From: a virus
Strand: one strand, 5' to 3'
DNA: 64,000 nt
Virus record (IMG/VR): IMGVR_UViG_3300019776_000194
Location: 1-64,000 of that record
Shown: piece by piece, positions 3,471 through 61,700 of the stretch
Layout of the letters: the number at the start of each line of letters is the position of its first letter
How positions within the stretch are numbered: the stretch's first letter is position 1
The notes under the pieces: model-generated
The model's database searches: none
What the model was told of the DNA's origin: nothing
The model's input: only the letters and a program-made list of their open reading frames with translations
Program-made: the position numbers and the translations under genes

Positions 3471-3807
3471 ACAAATATTCTTAGAAACTAAAGCAACACT
3501 AGAACAACAAGCATTATCATCTGTCCAAGAAGCCCTTGATAAACTTTATATTGAATATCTCCCATATGTTGAAAACGATACAGCTTCTAATGTCTATTTC
3601 ATGTCAACAGATTGGATACGTAGATACTTAGCTGGTAATCTCAGAGAAGATGATTTCAAGATTAACATTCTCGCCGAAGATGTTCGTAGAAAGATTTGGG
3701 ATGAGAACAAAGAGGAATTGAAAGAGCTGATTGCTAAGGATGTACAAGACCGTCTAGCTTATTTGGAGAAGGAACTTCGAGCAAGTTGGGAACATAAATA
3801 TTTTTAA
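3457..3807 (+). CDS. hypothetical protein, 116 aa
   Basis: Starts within the end of thyX (14-bp overlap) behind AGGAGAAAAC. It is strongly helical and charged (K/E/D-rich), with no known domain. Function unknown. Confidence 0.6.
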   Translation: MKTIEQIFLETKATLEQQALSSVQEALDKLYIEYLPYVENDTASNVYFMSTDWIRRYLAGNLREDDFKINILAEDVRRKIWDENKEELKELIAKDVQDRLAYLEKELRASWEHKYF

Positions 3808-3817
3808 GGAGAACAAA

Positions 3818-4213
3818 ATGTTTAGCATATTCAAATCGAAACAAAAACGTGAAGCAGAAGCTTTAGCTAAATTGAAAGAAGATGAACGCAAGAAGAGTTT
3901 AGCACGTAGTATTCCTCCACAACGTAATCCAAGCAACTCCAGTGATGATACATGGGGTTTTCCTGCTGCAGCTCTGTACCCAAGCAACTACAACATTTCT
4001 GCACGAGAAGTGGAAAGTCCTAGTAATTTCTTGTCAGAAGGCTCTGGAAGCTTCTCTGGAGCTGGTAGTAGTTCTAGTTGGAGTAGTTCTTCAAGTGATG
4101 ATAGTAGCTCTCGTAGCTGCTCTAGCTCTTCGTATTCTAGTAGTTATTCTAGTTCTGATAGCTACAGTAGTTCTTCTAGCGATAGCTCTTCTAGCTGCAG
4201 TAGCTCTGATTAA
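3818..4213 (+). CDS. Ser-rich low-complexity protein, 131 aa
   Basis: AAGGAGAACAAA ribosome binding site. The N-terminal third is basic and helical; residues about 70-131 are almost pure Ser with scattered Asp, Tyr and Cys, a disordered tail. The Ser codons alternate TCT, AGT and AGC, so the tail is not a simple DNA repeat and seems kept at protein level. No function can be assigned. A 94-aa ORF in another frame over the same DNA is a shadow. Confidence 0.6.
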   Translation: MFSIFKSKQKREAEALAKLKEDERKKSLARSIPPQRNPSNSSDDTWGFPAAALYPSNYNISAREVESPSNFLSEGSGSFSGAGSSSSWSSSSSDDSSSRSCSSSSYSSSYSSSDSYSSSSSDSSSSCSSSD

Positions 4214-53303: not shown

Positions 53304-54175
53304 TACATGGTTCCTTTTTGTTTATCTACTACATATTTGACAAATTCTTTATTTGTCATAATTCCTGTTACTAATCCGTTTGATAACGAGTCTTCTGCAT
53401 CAAACACCTCTGCTTCAAAACCTTTAATATCAGATATTGAAAGTCCTGTATACTTTGCTACGTGGTCTGTAAACTCATTGTTAAGTTTGTCTACTGATTT
53501 CTGCAAACTTTCCAAGAAGCTCTTCTTAAATGCCCCTGTCTCATCGAATGGGACTTTGTTTTCGCCAGAAGTAATATAAATACGTTTATATCCTTCCATC
53601 TCCATTGCCTTAGAAGTATCAAGCAGGGAAATTACGCAACCAATTGAACCACTAGAAGCCGAAGGATTAATGTAAAGCTCATCACAAACAGCAGCAATCG
53701 CATACGCAGCAGAACAAGCCATTGTGTCAATGTACCCAAGTAAAGTCACACCTTCTTCGTCACACATCTTGCGAATTTCTTCTACCGTTTCAAATACATG
53801 TGAAGCTTCCCCACCTCCTGAGGAGAAATTCATGATGATTGTTGTAGCACCATCTTCAATCGCACTTTCAACATCGTCTTGGAGTGATTGATAACTTGTA
53901 CCAACCTCTCCACATATTGTCTCTACTGGTTTGTAAGTTAAAGTCCCACAAACATCAATCACCACAATAGGAAGTGGACTTTCATCAAAATCATCCATAT
54001 CATCAGGTGTATCTTCCTCTTCTGGAGAATCATCTCCCATAGGAATTAGCATCTGTATACCCTTAGAATTACGAGCCTCTAAGTAATCTAAAATAACATC
54101 AAACGCCTGAGTTGTGATAAGATGGGGTGTATTATGTATTTTTGTCGAGAGCCTTAAGAGGCTATGTTTTGGCAT
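53303..54175 (-). CDS. head maturation protease, S49/ClpP-like (lambda gpC-type)
   Basis: Signal-peptide-peptidase-like fold: 'IVVIDVCGTLT', 'IIMNFSSGGGEAS', nucleophile Ser 155 in 'TMACSAAYAI', and Lys 207 in 'SGENKVPFDETG'. Acidic linker at 48-66. It cleaves the scaffold and other head proteins during maturation. Its ribosome binding site AAGGAGG and first codons lie inside the 3' end of the upstream GIY-YIG gene. Confidence 0.88.
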   Translation of the reverse strand: MPKHSLLRLSTKIHNTPHLITTQAFDVILDYLEARNSKGIQMLIPMGDDSPEEEDTPDDMDDFDESPLPIVVIDVCGTLTYKPVETICGEVGTSYQSLQDDVESAIEDGATTIIMNFSSGGGEASHVFETVEEIRKMCDEEGVTLLGYIDTMACSAAYAIAAVCDELYINPSASSGSIGCVISLLDTSKAMEMEGYKRIYITSGENKVPFDETGAFKKSFLESLQKSVDKLNNEFTDHVAKYTGLSISDIKGFEAEVFDAEDSLSNGLVTGIMTNKEFVKYVVDKQKGTM

Positions 54176-54858
54176 GAAGCCTCCTTATAATTATCTAACC
54201 AAACAGAATAACAGTTATCTTCACTAGGATTCCAACCTGATTTTATTTTGTTTACAACTTTCATAGCAGAGTCGGGCGTTATGCCGAATTCTTTTGCCAC
54301 TGAGCGTCTTCCAATAACTTCACCCTTTGAAAACTTTGCGTAAATATCTAAAGCCAAAGACCAACAATATTTATTAGAGTGAGGATGCTCCCAAGGATTC
54401 TCAAAAGTCATGACAGCCTTACCAATTACTCTCATTCTGGCTAAGTGTTCCTCAGCTACTTTTCTTCCAGTTCTTTTACTGGCAGATTTTTGAATAGCAT
54501 CTGCTGACATTTTCTTGCCAGTATTTATAACCCTCAACTTTTCAACAGCTTCTTTAGAAAGTTTCCTTCCCTCATTCCTAGACTCACCTCCAGCACATAT
54601 ATTCCATGCAATATTAGGTTTACTTCGATAAGCCCATTCTAATAAGTTACAGAATTCTGAGTCATCCTCTGCTAAAATAGTCACTTTAAAGTCGGGATGT
54701 TTTCTCATAGCATTATAAAGCGTATTTTTACAACCTTTTCTAAGCATGTGCATGTGACCGCTCATCCTTTTATTTAAAGACCTAGTAGTAACACCTATAT
54801 AGCCTTGAGTTTTTGGGTTAGTGTGATCTGGACTATGAATCCAATATAAAATTGCCAT
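54154..54858 (-). CDS. GIY-YIG homing endonuclease, 234 aa
   Basis: 'ILYWIHSPD' and 'GYIGVTTR' form the GIY-YIG core, with the Arg/Glu in 'RMSGHMHMLRKG' and 'EFCNLLEWAYRS'. NUMOD3-type helices follow ('LSKEAVEKLRVINTGKKMS'), and the C-terminal HTH ('VAKEFGITPDSAMKVVNKIKSGWNP') matches the 52061 gene. It begins 4 bases after the portal stop and overlaps the protease by 22 bp, so it fills the gap between the two head genes. Confidence 0.88.
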   Translation of the reverse strand: MAILYWIHSPDHTNPKTQGYIGVTTRSLNKRMSGHMHMLRKGCKNTLYNAMRKHPDFKVTILAEDDSEFCNLLEWAYRSKPNIAWNICAGGESRNEGRKLSKEAVEKLRVINTGKKMSADAIQKSASKRTGRKVAEEHLARMRVIGKAVMTFENPWEHPHSNKYCWSLALDIYAKFSKGEVIGRRSVAKEFGITPDSAMKVVNKIKSGWNPSEDNCYSVWLDNYKEASCQNIAS

Positions 54859-56461: not shown

Positions 56462-58133
56462 TTATATAGTTGGTATTGGGGATGGTCTAGTAAAGGACGG
56501 TAAACTGAAGGTCGGAAGTGTGTGGGTTCGCATCAACGCCTTACATGCCGTACCAGTTGCGTCCCAATAATCGTCCTTCTGCTGTCGCTTTCCATCTACA
56601 AAATCTTCTAATTCTGATAACAGTGGCTCAGTATCCCAACTTCCATCATCTAGAATTTTGACAAAACCTGCCTCAGCTAATGTCAAGAATGGCTGCATTC
56701 TGTGTAGTTTACTTTTTGTACCGCCAGACTTATCAATTCTTGCATCGACACCAGCTTCAATTAATGTCTTAACAAAAAACATAGTGGCTGCTTTAGCTGC
56801 TACACCTACGTCTTCAGGTAAGTACACTGCAGGTGAATGTCCTATAGCCTTATCTCTACGGTCTGTTTCTGCAATGTGTTCCATTACACCGTTAATTAGA
56901 GACCTGTATCGTTCTCCGTGATGGATAATGTAATAGCCCGATTTTGTCTTAGACATCATTACAGATGCAGTCCAGTCAGGGTCTGGATAAGCTTCAGAAG
57001 GTAAACTACCTGCAATATCCATACCACGAACTGTTGCTACAATGTCATCAGGAAGTTCTGTAATTACTTCGCACCAATCTCTTTTAAAAAATCCTCTTGA
57101 CTCTTCTTTCGCATGCCACGACCCTAAGTAGAGACGTTCACGTTCAGTGCGCTTCAAGTTCTCCAAACGAGCTACGTAGTTTGGATTCAAGATTTTCATG
57201 ATGGGGTTATCTTTAACCGTAGCAGAAATATAAGTATATGTTTGAGCTTGGATTTTATCTCCATACTTCTCAATCAACTCTTCTTTTGTATCTGCTGTTA
57301 CTGTCACACCGCCATAAGTAGCGTAGTATCTCTCTTTACCAGACAATTCAGGAATGGGAATACCTGTTTCCATATCTAAATACGGCTGTACGAATTGGTA
57401 AAGGTAGGAGGCTCTTGATGGGTTAGCTGTACAGATAAGTTGGTGAGGAGCTTGTGCTTTAGAGCGAATACGAGACTCTAGGTATTTGATTTGAGTTTCA
57501 CTATGCCATTGAGCTTCATCGAAACAAACTAGTGAGAATTGCCCACCGTCAAAGTTGTTAATATCCCTATCTGCTTGACACACTTTAAACTGCACTTGTG
57601 CTCCACTTGGGAATGTGGCTGTCATCTGTGGATGTGTCTTAAACTTTGCTCCGTAATCTTTCCACATATCTTGTGCTTCCATGAACAAACCACCAGCTTG
57701 TGAAAGCTGTGTGGATGTCTCACGAATGAATACACCTCTAAAATATGGGTCGTGAATGTATTTTAGAATTAACATTAACGCTTGGTGCGATTTGCCAGAA
57801 CCTGCCATCTGACGTATTCAAAAGGGGTCGTTACACCCTTCCCGCTTTATTCAAGCTGCTGAAAGTCGCCTTTCAGATTAGACTATATCTTCTGACTCCC
57901 CTGTTTCCACTCACTTGAGTGTACGGCTTTCGCCTAGTCGTTGAACCTTCCTGCAAACAGGCTTGGCTGCGGATTGTCTCTGTGAGAGTTTCCCGCAATT
58001 GAAGGGATGTTTTTAACGTGGAGGCACAGGATTATCTACCACCACCGAATATCACGAAATTAGACTTGCAATTCAGAAACTTCCTGTGAGCTTCTGAAGC
58101 AGGTGCTAATACTTTACGTTCTTTTTTGCTCAT
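56462..58133 (-). CDS. terL: terminase large subunit, split by a group I intron
   Basis: Exon 1 is 58133-58038 (32 codons), exon 2 is 57805-56462; joined they give 479 aa. Walker A reads GGGAGSGKS at residues 30-38, with exon 1 ending GGG and exon 2 starting AGSGKS. Walker B 'VCFDEA' lies near 125-130, then a nuclease region with 'GMDIAGSLP'. Without splicing, exon 1 stops at the TAA two codons after the junction. An ATG at the intron/exon 2 border could start a protein lacking the first part of Walker A. Ribosome binding site AAAGGAG. It packages DNA through the portal. Confidence 0.9.
57806..58037 (-). ncRNA. group I intron, 232 nt, no ORF
   Basis: Read on the - strand, the intron follows a U at the end of exon 1 (GGU|AGAUAA) and ends with G (CAGAUG|GCA), as group I introns require. 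Core elements appear in order: P-type AATTGCGGGAAAC (58000-57988), Q-type AATCCGCAGCCAAGC (57975-57961), R-type GTTCAACGACTAG (57946-57934), S-type AAGATATAGTC (57891-57881). Internal-guide pairing may use GCCTCC near the 5' end. Exact splicing restores the Walker A reading frame. No homing endonuclease lies inside. Confidence 0.9.
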
Positions 58134-58372: not shown

Positions 58373-58445
58373 TGGATGCGGTCGCCTGACTTGAACAGGA
58401 CTGAAAGCTTATGAGACTTTCGTGCAACCTTTACACTACCCCGCA
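58373..58445 (-). tRNA. tRNA-Met-like (anticodon CAU), possibly degenerate
   Basis: 73 nt on the - strand including an encoded CCA. Acceptor starts TGCGG and pairs with CCGCA, D arm GTGT/GCAC, anticodon stem AAAGT/GCTTT with loop CTCATAA, T loop TTCAAGT with CCTG/CAGG. Acceptor pairs 6, 7 and T-stem pair 49-65 mismatch and the variable loop is only 3 nt, so it may work poorly. CAU could be read as Met or, if modified, as Ile. It sits between terS and terL, transcribed with them. Confidence 0.6.
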
Positions 58446-60160: not shown

Positions 60161-60901
60161 ATGGCTCGCGTAATTAGCAAAAAAACTAAAAAATCCCCTG
60201 AAACTGCACCTGTAATCAAAGAGAAATTCTTGGAACAGCGTAAACTTGAAATTGAAAGTAAACCAATTGTTCCGATGAACGAACGGCAAGCCGAATACTT
60301 CAAAGCTATCAAAGACTATGATTTGATTGTTGCAACAGGTTTCGCAGGTTCCTCGAAGACATTTATTGCAACTTGTATGGCTGCAGACGCATGGCGAACA
60401 GGGGTTTGTAATAAGATTGTACTTACTAGACCCTCTGTGTCAGACTCTAAGAGTCTTGGTTATTTTGGTGGTGATAAGGACATGAAAGTGAAGAACTGGA
60501 TTATGCCAATGTTATCTGTGTTGTATCAACGCATGGGTAAAGATGTAGTTGATGAAGCAATTGCAGATGGTAATATTCAACTACAGCCTTTAGAGACAAT
60601 CAAAGGGATGAGTTATGGAAGAGGTACATGGGTTATAGCGGATGAAGTCCAAGACTGCAAGATTTCTGAAATTAAGTCTATTATCACTCGTGGTGGTGGT
60701 TGCAAGATGATTTTATGTGGAGATGTTGCACAATCTGCTTTAAACAGTGATAGCGGGCTTGCCATTTTTTCAAGAATTATTGAAAAGAATCCTCGCTTAA
60801 AAGAGTCTGTGGCACGTATTGACTTTGACTCTTACGAGCATATTGTACGCAGTAAGACATGTAAAGATTTGATTATTGCATTTGATAAATCAGGGTACTA
60901 A
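60161..60901 (+). CDS. PhoH-like ATPase, 246 aa
   Basis: Walker A 'GFAGSSKT' at residues about 60-67, 'LTRPSVSD' and 'GGDKDMKVKNWIMPM' blocks, Walker B 'VIADEVQD', and 'LCGDVAQ' sensor are typical of PhoH proteins, widespread in phages and probably RNA/DNA helicase-like. Phage role is not settled. TGGAGGTATCTAC before ATG. An endonuclease gene follows by one base. Confidence 0.88.
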   Translation: MARVISKKTKKSPETAPVIKEKFLEQRKLEIESKPIVPMNERQAEYFKAIKDYDLIVATGFAGSSKTFIATCMAADAWRTGVCNKIVLTRPSVSDSKSLGYFGGDKDMKVKNWIMPMLSVLYQRMGKDVVDEAIADGNIQLQPLETIKGMSYGRGTWVIADEVQDCKISEIKSIITRGGGCKMILCGDVAQSALNSDSGLAIFSRIIEKNPRLKESVARIDFDSYEHIVRSKTCKDLIIAFDKSGY

Positions 60902-60902
60902 C

Positions 60903-61700
60903 ATGAAGATGTCCTCCGCACAACAGAAATCTATCAAAACAAAAGCTACCTTTCTTGGAAAAACTTTTAAAAGTAAAGACTGTGGGGATTTTACAGTATT
61001 AGACTATTTAAATTCTAAACAGGTACTCATACAATTTAATAAAACAAAGTCTCAAAAATGGTGTGAATTGAAAGCAGTCAGAAGTGGCGGTGTTAAAGAC
61101 CCTAATTTCCCATCTATATACGGAGTTGGATTTATAGGAGAGGGTGAATTCTCTTCTAGATTTGTGGGCGGTGCAAATACACCGTGTTATGACTCATGGA
61201 GAGGGATGCTCAGACGTTGCTACTCTGAAGAAAGTCTTATTAAAAGTCCTACTTATGCAGGATGCTCTGTGGCAGAAGAATGGCACAACTTTCAAAACTT
61301 TGCTGCATGGTATTATGAAAACTTAAAAGGTGTATCTGGAAAAGTTCACCTAGATAAAGACATTCTCAAGAAAGGGAACAAGATTTACTGCAAAGAAAAT
61401 TGCTGCCTTGTTAACGTCCAAATCAATTCATTATTTACTGGAGCTAGTATAGTAAATAGGGGTAAGTACCCACTAGGGGTGTTTCTAAGGAAAAGAAATG
61501 GAATGTTTGTTGCGCAAGTAACTAAAGGAAATGGTGCGCAGGAATTTTTAGGTGAGTATAATACACCTGAACAAGCTTTTTATGTCTATAAAAAGCACAA
61601 AGAAGATTTTGTAAAGCAAGTCGCAAACAAGTACAAAGACAGTATTAGAGAAGATGTTTATTTAGCTCTAATGAACTACACTGTCTCAATCGAAGATTAA
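60903..61700 (+). CDS. HNH/AP2-type endonuclease (homing type), 265 aa
   Basis: Paralogue of the 20359 gene: 'CYDSWRGMLRRCYS', 'YAGCSVAEEWHNFQNF', 'LDKDILKKGNKIY' and an AP2-like end 'PLGVFLRKRNGMFVAQV'. It starts one base after phoH with a weak ribosome binding site. The N-terminal 80 residues differ from its paralogue and may carry target specificity. Likely a free-standing homing endonuclease. Confidence 0.7.
   Translation: MKMSSAQQKSIKTKATFLGKTFKSKDCGDFTVLDYLNSKQVLIQFNKTKSQKWCELKAVRSGGVKDPNFPSIYGVGFIGEGEFSSRFVGGANTPCYDSWRGMLRRCYSEESLIKSPTYAGCSVAEEWHNFQNFAAWYYENLKGVSGKVHLDKDILKKGNKIYCKENCCLVNVQINSLFTGASIVNRGKYPLGVFLRKRNGMFVAQVTKGNGAQEFLGEYNTPEQAFYVYKKHKEDFVKQVANKYKDSIREDVYLALMNYTVSIED

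Follow-up and report, generated by a model that had tools for sequence, protein, structure and literature searches.

How is a TerL protein made from a gene whose P-loop codons are split by 232 nt that bring a stop into the reading frame? This question is raised by terL in the window, by which we mean the whole 64,000-nt stretch of viral DNA analysed here. The whole explanation is very probably a self-splicing group I ribozyme that sits in the terL P-loop codons and belongs to a family of mini-introns, the window copy being one that has neither a mobility gene nor a partner.

The interrupted terL gene

The gene lies on the minus strand. It starts with an ATG at 58133 (MSKKERKVLAPASEAHRKFLNCKSNFVIFGGG), and exon 1 (58038-58133, 32 codons, MSKKERK...IFGGG) terminates in GGTGGTGGT; we placed this exon from its reading frame and from a 97% identical intronless TerL on contig L006. 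Exon 2 (56462-57805) runs from AGSGKS to the stop and matches Pfam Terminase_6N (5.5e-21) and PHROG 979 (2e-136). It is an open, conserved frame of 447 codons, 97% identical to a relative. When 58037-57806 is removed, GGTGGTGGT is joined to GCAGGTTCTGGCAAATCG and the junction reads ...FVIFGGGAGSGKSHQAL..., which encodes FGGGAGSGKS, so the insertion point is between the third Gly and the Ala (FGGG|AGSGKS). The joined exons give a TerL of 479 residues with no internal stop, open to 56462. A sequence-only reading of this DNA had proposed an ORF-less 232-nt intron splitting the Walker A motif at 57806-58037, and the join confirms it to the nucleotide. It had also predicted an early stop without splicing. 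The unspliced frame continues straight after GGTGGTGGT with AGA TAA, one Arg codon and then a stop, and the product would be a peptide of 33 residues, so a viable phage would depend on splicing.

The same reading had suggested a covariance search with the Rfam group I model and a comparison of terL in relatives with and without the intron. The search gave 74.3 bits (E 5e-17) for RF00028 (Intron_gpI) at 57806-58037, above the gathering cut-off of 50 bits, and this was the sole group I match across the 84,394-base record. The comparison found an empty site in L006, where ATTTTCGGAGGCGGG-GCAGGTTCGGGCAAA is uninterrupted and FGGGAGSGKS is continuous. We found no endonuclease ORF in the six frames of the 232 nt; the longest stop-free stretch is 52 codons, which is too short for an intron-encoded endonuclease. 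Rfam, the empty site, the exon pairing and the covariation described below all agree that the Walker A codons of terL contain a group I intron with no endonuclease inside it.

Finding the intron also corrects the gene call, as terL would otherwise be annotated from inside the P-loop, seemingly without a Walker A motif. A gap of the kind that a terL intron causes is present in Acinetobacter phage YMC13/03/R2096 (KM672662; locus L110, 1285-2200), where terL is annotated only downstream of two apparent introns, the annotation omits exon 1 and the P-loop, and an HNH gene lies upstream.

Insertion positions among relatives

We took ten IMG/VR contigs as close TerL relatives, and extended these with a wider search (80 loci) and a guide-sequence pattern search (9 loci), some of them overlapping. 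From the IMG/VR loci and Vibrio phage ICP1 we compiled 24 distinct introns. L052 and YMC13/03/R2096 were excluded, as their 3' boundary goes against the terminal-G rule; in L052 the intron is in the P-loop codons at about 3717-4000, and restoring the frame seems to need a 3' A and not a G.

All 24 introns are 214-301 nt long and ORF-less, and each one follows a U, has G as its last base, and leaves the P-loop in frame once it is removed. They occupy four positions on the F-G1-G2-G3-A-G-[SC]-G-K-S codons, all within 10 nt. Site 1 is G2|G3 (six introns), site 2 is G3|A (eleven, including that of the window), site 3 is A|G in a lineage with GGAAGSGKS (five), and site 4 is inside the S codon (two). 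Introns at the window's position are found in L007 (TerL 96% identical), L011 (56%) and L012-L014 (50%), and in L008 (95%) the group I intron is a different one, placed 7 nt further downstream within the serine codon. No group I intron was found in any of the 18 intronless loci that were scanned. A few of the intron-bearing genes have a second terL intron further along (L011, L060, L080, L085). The one in L011 (5105-5324) is also a group I intron, about 100 nt past the P-loop intron and after the TQLSQAG codons.

The TerL P-loop codons are therefore a repeatedly occupied site for the family of mini-introns that includes the window copy. That homing typically targets conserved motifs had been put forward from the sequence, and as relatives have introns at four or more positions of the P-loop codons, the idea turns out better supported than its author could know.

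Splice sites and RNA structure

The base before the 5' splice site is U and the last base of the intron is G, as had been read from the letters, with a 3' end of ...CAGATG|GCAGG. Moving the boundary one base along would leave the protein unchanged as well (GGG in place of GGT); it is the U/G rule, the U-G pair of P1 and the P10 pairing that together fix the boundary given here. The internal guide sequence GCCUCCAC (58018-58025) forms P1 with the 5' exon GUGGUGGU (58045-58038), with a terminal U-G pair, one U-U mismatch and two covarying pairs. P1 pairs at the expected site in nearly all of the 24 P-loop introns, and it covaries with the exon among relatives. Just 5' of the guide is the P10 strand CCUGU (58026-58030), which pairs with GCAGG of the 3' exon (57805-57801). 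At site 2 this pairing is contiguous and also covaries with the exon (GCAGG/CCUGU, GCUGG/CCAGU): the introns of L011, L021 and ICP1, whose 3' exon reads GCUGG, carry CAGU or CCAGU instead.

Within the core, the covariance model recognises P3-P4-P6-P7 and J8/7. The Rfam alignment agrees with the earlier reading that the core elements are in order, although that reading had overlooked the absence of P8. The 5' strand of P3 (UCCCUU, 58002-58007) pairs with AGGGGA at 57902-57897, supported by structure and covariation, and the 5' strand of the guanosine-binding helix P7 (GACUA, 57935-57939) pairs with UAGUC at 57885-57881, supported by Rfam and covariation. Judging by the spacing in relatives, an 11-nt linker, GUCAGAAGAUA (57886-57896), is in place of the P8 hairpin, and the J8/7 motif is kept. 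The P9, P9.1 and P9.2 hairpins and the 3' end of the intron (57806-57880) are partly outside the Rfam model; here we relied on covariation (helices 13-15). Stems P7.1 and P7.2 are also present (GGC-GAAA-GCC and CACUC-AAGU-GAGUG). Such stems between P7 and P3' are a mark of subgroup IA, so their presence points to an intron of that subgroup.

We counted covariation on the 15 introns of sites 1 and 2, using a structure drawn on L007. Of the cells, 95.2% were paired, as against 38-45% in slid controls, and P7.2 was paired in 100%. Double-sided changes were seen in 43 of 64 pairs, compared to 11-16 in the slid controls; a structure derived from L007 somewhat favours the true version over slid ones, but the double changes are still far above both controls. 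None of 500 shuffles attained the observed values for pairing and double changes. Single-sequence folding was not unusual (z = -1.04) with a tool that does not handle pseudoknots, and group I introns need one; we set this result aside as uninformative.

If the intron splices as other members of its group, P1 (GUGGUGGU/GCCUCCAC) would set the 5' splice site at the U-G pair, and guanosine bound in P7 would attack it. The 3' site would then be brought into place for ligation of the exons by P10 (CCUGU/GCAGG) together with the terminal G, and the intron would leave the terL mRNA through two transesterifications. The predicted ligated junction is GGTGGTGGT-GCAGGTTCTGG, within the exon sequence GGTGGTGGTGCAGGTTCTGG.

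The missing P8

The core of the window intron is complete apart from P8. There are 10 nt between P3' and J8/7, versus 18-25 nt in the relatives that we measured, and at this place the intron is about 15 nt shorter than that of L007. P8 is usual in group I introns, and the Rfam model score does not require it. Bacillus phage AR9 has a P8-less group I intron in rpoB, annotated as a joined gene, which scores 76 bits in Rfam (L101). Given the Rfam score without P8 and the AR9 member, we treat the window intron as a variant and do not exclude it from group I. A pattern search for P8-less introns gave mostly chance matches in coding sequence, plus AR9 (L101, L108) and L105; the L108 match to the P8-less core pattern had nothing at the Rfam gathering cut-off. 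Loss of P8 is thus rare but not unique.

This loss could weaken or abolish self-splicing, and there are two ways in which it could change the explanation of the locus. In one, the window has a decayed, splicing-deficient copy that lost its activity with P8, and terL is broken, which would mean that the phage is defective, that it is a minority variant, or that its intron depends on a protein or on a second copy in trans. Both the shortened P8 segment and the lack of an endonuclease neighbour (see below) are in line with such decay. Against it, the remaining core helices are all intact and contain covarying pairs, exon 2 has kept its long conserved frame, and AR9 carries a P8-less intron in a joined gene; we consider decay quite unlikely. 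In the other, the deletion is an artefact of metagenome assembly, and the virus itself has an intron with a P8 resembling that of L007. The window virus is known from a single contig, and a hairpin is a plausible spot for a collapse in assembly or sequencing. However, the flanking sequence is clean, the GUCAG of the linker is not simply the L007 sequence minus its hairpin, and a natural P8-less intron exists in AR9, so we find an artefact unlikely as well. From the sequence we infer that loss of P8 is tolerated in this intron and that it is spliced in vivo.

Endonuclease neighbours and mobility

An endonuclease gene lies directly before terL in 19 of 24 intron-bearing loci but in only 8 of 19 intronless ones (Fisher p = 0.025). 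These genes are of the HNH/AP2, HNH/NUMOD3 and zinc-ribbon plus T5orf172 types. The association was not significant in phylogenetically independent pairs (sign test) or in a partial Mantel test of intron against endonuclease (815/5000), and because of these two tests we go no further than to call collaborative homing, with introns beside free-standing HNH/AP2 or T5orf172 genes, the likely mode of the family.

For the window intron, an upstream endonuclease was rejected as a partner: there is no endonuclease gene within 2.5 kb upstream of the intron. A Blast search of the 750 bp upstream against phages gave no match. Just upstream of terL, at 58377-58444 on the minus strand, is a weak Rfam tRNA match (35.6 bits) that ARAGORN did not call, possibly a degenerate tRNA; several relatives have clear tRNAs in the same region. 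An HNH endonuclease ORF (60876-61700, plus strand, PHROG 953) is located between phoH and a Clp protease gene, and it shares 41% identity with the endonuclease that L008 encodes upstream of its terL.

The sequence-only reading had offered a choice between dependence on a nearby GIY-YIG enzyme and present immobility. There is a GIY-YIG/NUMOD3-like homing endonuclease ORF at 54154-54858 (minus strand), in the same late gene block, assigned by PHROG; Pfam adds a borderline GIY-YIG match that falls slightly short of the family cut-off. If it acted in trans it could mobilise the window intron. However, it is 1.6 kb past the terL stop and beyond the portal gene, between portal and the S49 protease, whose start it overlaps. 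Many relatives have a homologue in the same place, and it is equally common in those with the intron (L007, L035/L046, L042, L051, L052) and without it (L006, L027/L059, L030, L032, L055). With no association with intron presence we dropped this ORF as the mobility partner, and consider its involvement very improbable. Immobility fares better. As the window intron has neither an endonuclease neighbour nor P8, it may be an immobile copy, one that lost its neighbour or never had one, and it is now probably only vertically inherited or moved by ordinary recombination.

Whether the family as a whole has moved by homing is a wider question. The introns could instead be ancestral to the TerL lineages, with many losses by recombination with intronless alleles and no homing now, and the upstream endonucleases would then be independent parasites of the region. 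Intron similarity tracks TerL similarity (Spearman 0.74), so much of the descent is vertical or short-range, which fits vertical descent with losses. The upstream endonucleases are also beside intronless terL, their families are mixed, and the partial Mantel result leans the same way. Several observations do not fit. An AU test on the introns rejects a TerL clade that is well supported, L016+L018+L019+L021 (p = 0.0003), but not L016+L019 alone (p = 0.08). The introns of L011 and L016 are 75% identical despite TerLs that are 40% identical, and the pairs L045/L047 and L040/L041 have near-identical TerLs but do not match in intron content. In favour of the main explanation we also count the patchy presence of introns on the TerL tree, with the six site-1 introns needing six changes. 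We regard purely ancestral introns as possible, though we lean against them.

Sites 1 and 2 are one glycine codon apart and have a common guide, GCCUCC against GGUGGU, and the intron tree does not cleanly separate the introns of the two sites. One guide for both sites and a mixed tree suggest sliding by one codon, that is, an intron that may move along the GGT repeat; we offer this as an idea and not as a result. Among the IMG/VR relatives, GGTGGT stands before the site in nearly all intron-bearing alleles of sites 1 and 2 and rarely in intronless ones (for example GGAGGCGGG and GGCGGAGGC), as if synonymous changes made intronless alleles unfit or resistant targets.

Putting this together, we tentatively propose a joint picture to which we would give a little less than an even chance. 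The TerL Walker A would be a landing zone where group I mini-introns, either unrelated or slid, have settled at no fewer than four positions within 10 nt. They would be exchanged repeatedly among distant phages through swappable adjoining endonuclease genes, GGT-GGT-GGT would allow a single guide to be used at two sites one codon from each other, and the P8-less ribozyme of the window would be functional. The relatives provide a natural experiment, since near-identical TerLs differ in the presence or exact site of the intron, with different adjoining endonuclease genes. These phages allow direct tests of collaborative homing, of a slide over one glycine codon and of whether P8 is needed.

Comparison with known systems

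Self-splicing selfish elements have targeted this motif repeatedly. Inteins are known in the TerL P-loop of mycobacteriophages (PMC5050341), in the same motif and at neighbouring insertion points, although these splice as protein and not as RNA, and at least one site differs (TerL1-a, between Lys and Thr). Group I introns in terL have been described for Certrevirus CB7 (PMC7344957), Shewanella phage KASIA (PMC8541194), the Bastillevirinae SIOphi/phiAGATE (PMC11878797) and the Jug phages (PMC12363816), and for several of these and the vequintavirus cases splicing was shown. The introns of CB7 and KASIA carry HNH genes, unlike that of the window, and in the vequintaviruses L002 and L005 the first terL intron comes after the Walker B codons (FDEG|) and not in Walker A. 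Closer to the window are the terL introns of L007, L011, L012, L016, L018, L019, L021 and L036, which have its site and fold, are 225-245 nt long and have no ORF, but keep the P8 segment; several have an endonuclease directly upstream. An ORF-less intron with an adjoining free-standing endonuclease, the layout of many relatives, is also that of the cyanophage psbA intron and a T3/T7-like case, for which, as cited in PMC10448857, collaborative homing with cleavage at the intron site is reported; the window lacks the partner.

The nearest precedent is ICP1 (NC_015157), whose 262-nt ORF-less terL intron is at the identical position (YGGA|AGGGKS), with junctions TAT GGT GGT GCT | AAATAATCC...CATTG | GCT GGC GGT GGT AAG. 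Both introns have the U|..G boundaries, P1 and P10 (CCAGU/GCUGG in ICP1), although their sequences are divergent. Splicing of the ICP1 intron was shown by RNA-seq and RT-PCR, and its authors discuss collaborative homing with a T5orf172 endonuclease gene beside exon 1 (PMC10448857), a neighbour that the window does not have. In the open-access literature we found no paper that describes a hot spot for group I introns at several sites of the TerL P-loop. The intron type and its exact position in terL are thus already known from ICP1, and what we add is the multi-position hot spot in the P-loop, the layout of neighbouring endonucleases and the P8-less core of the window copy.
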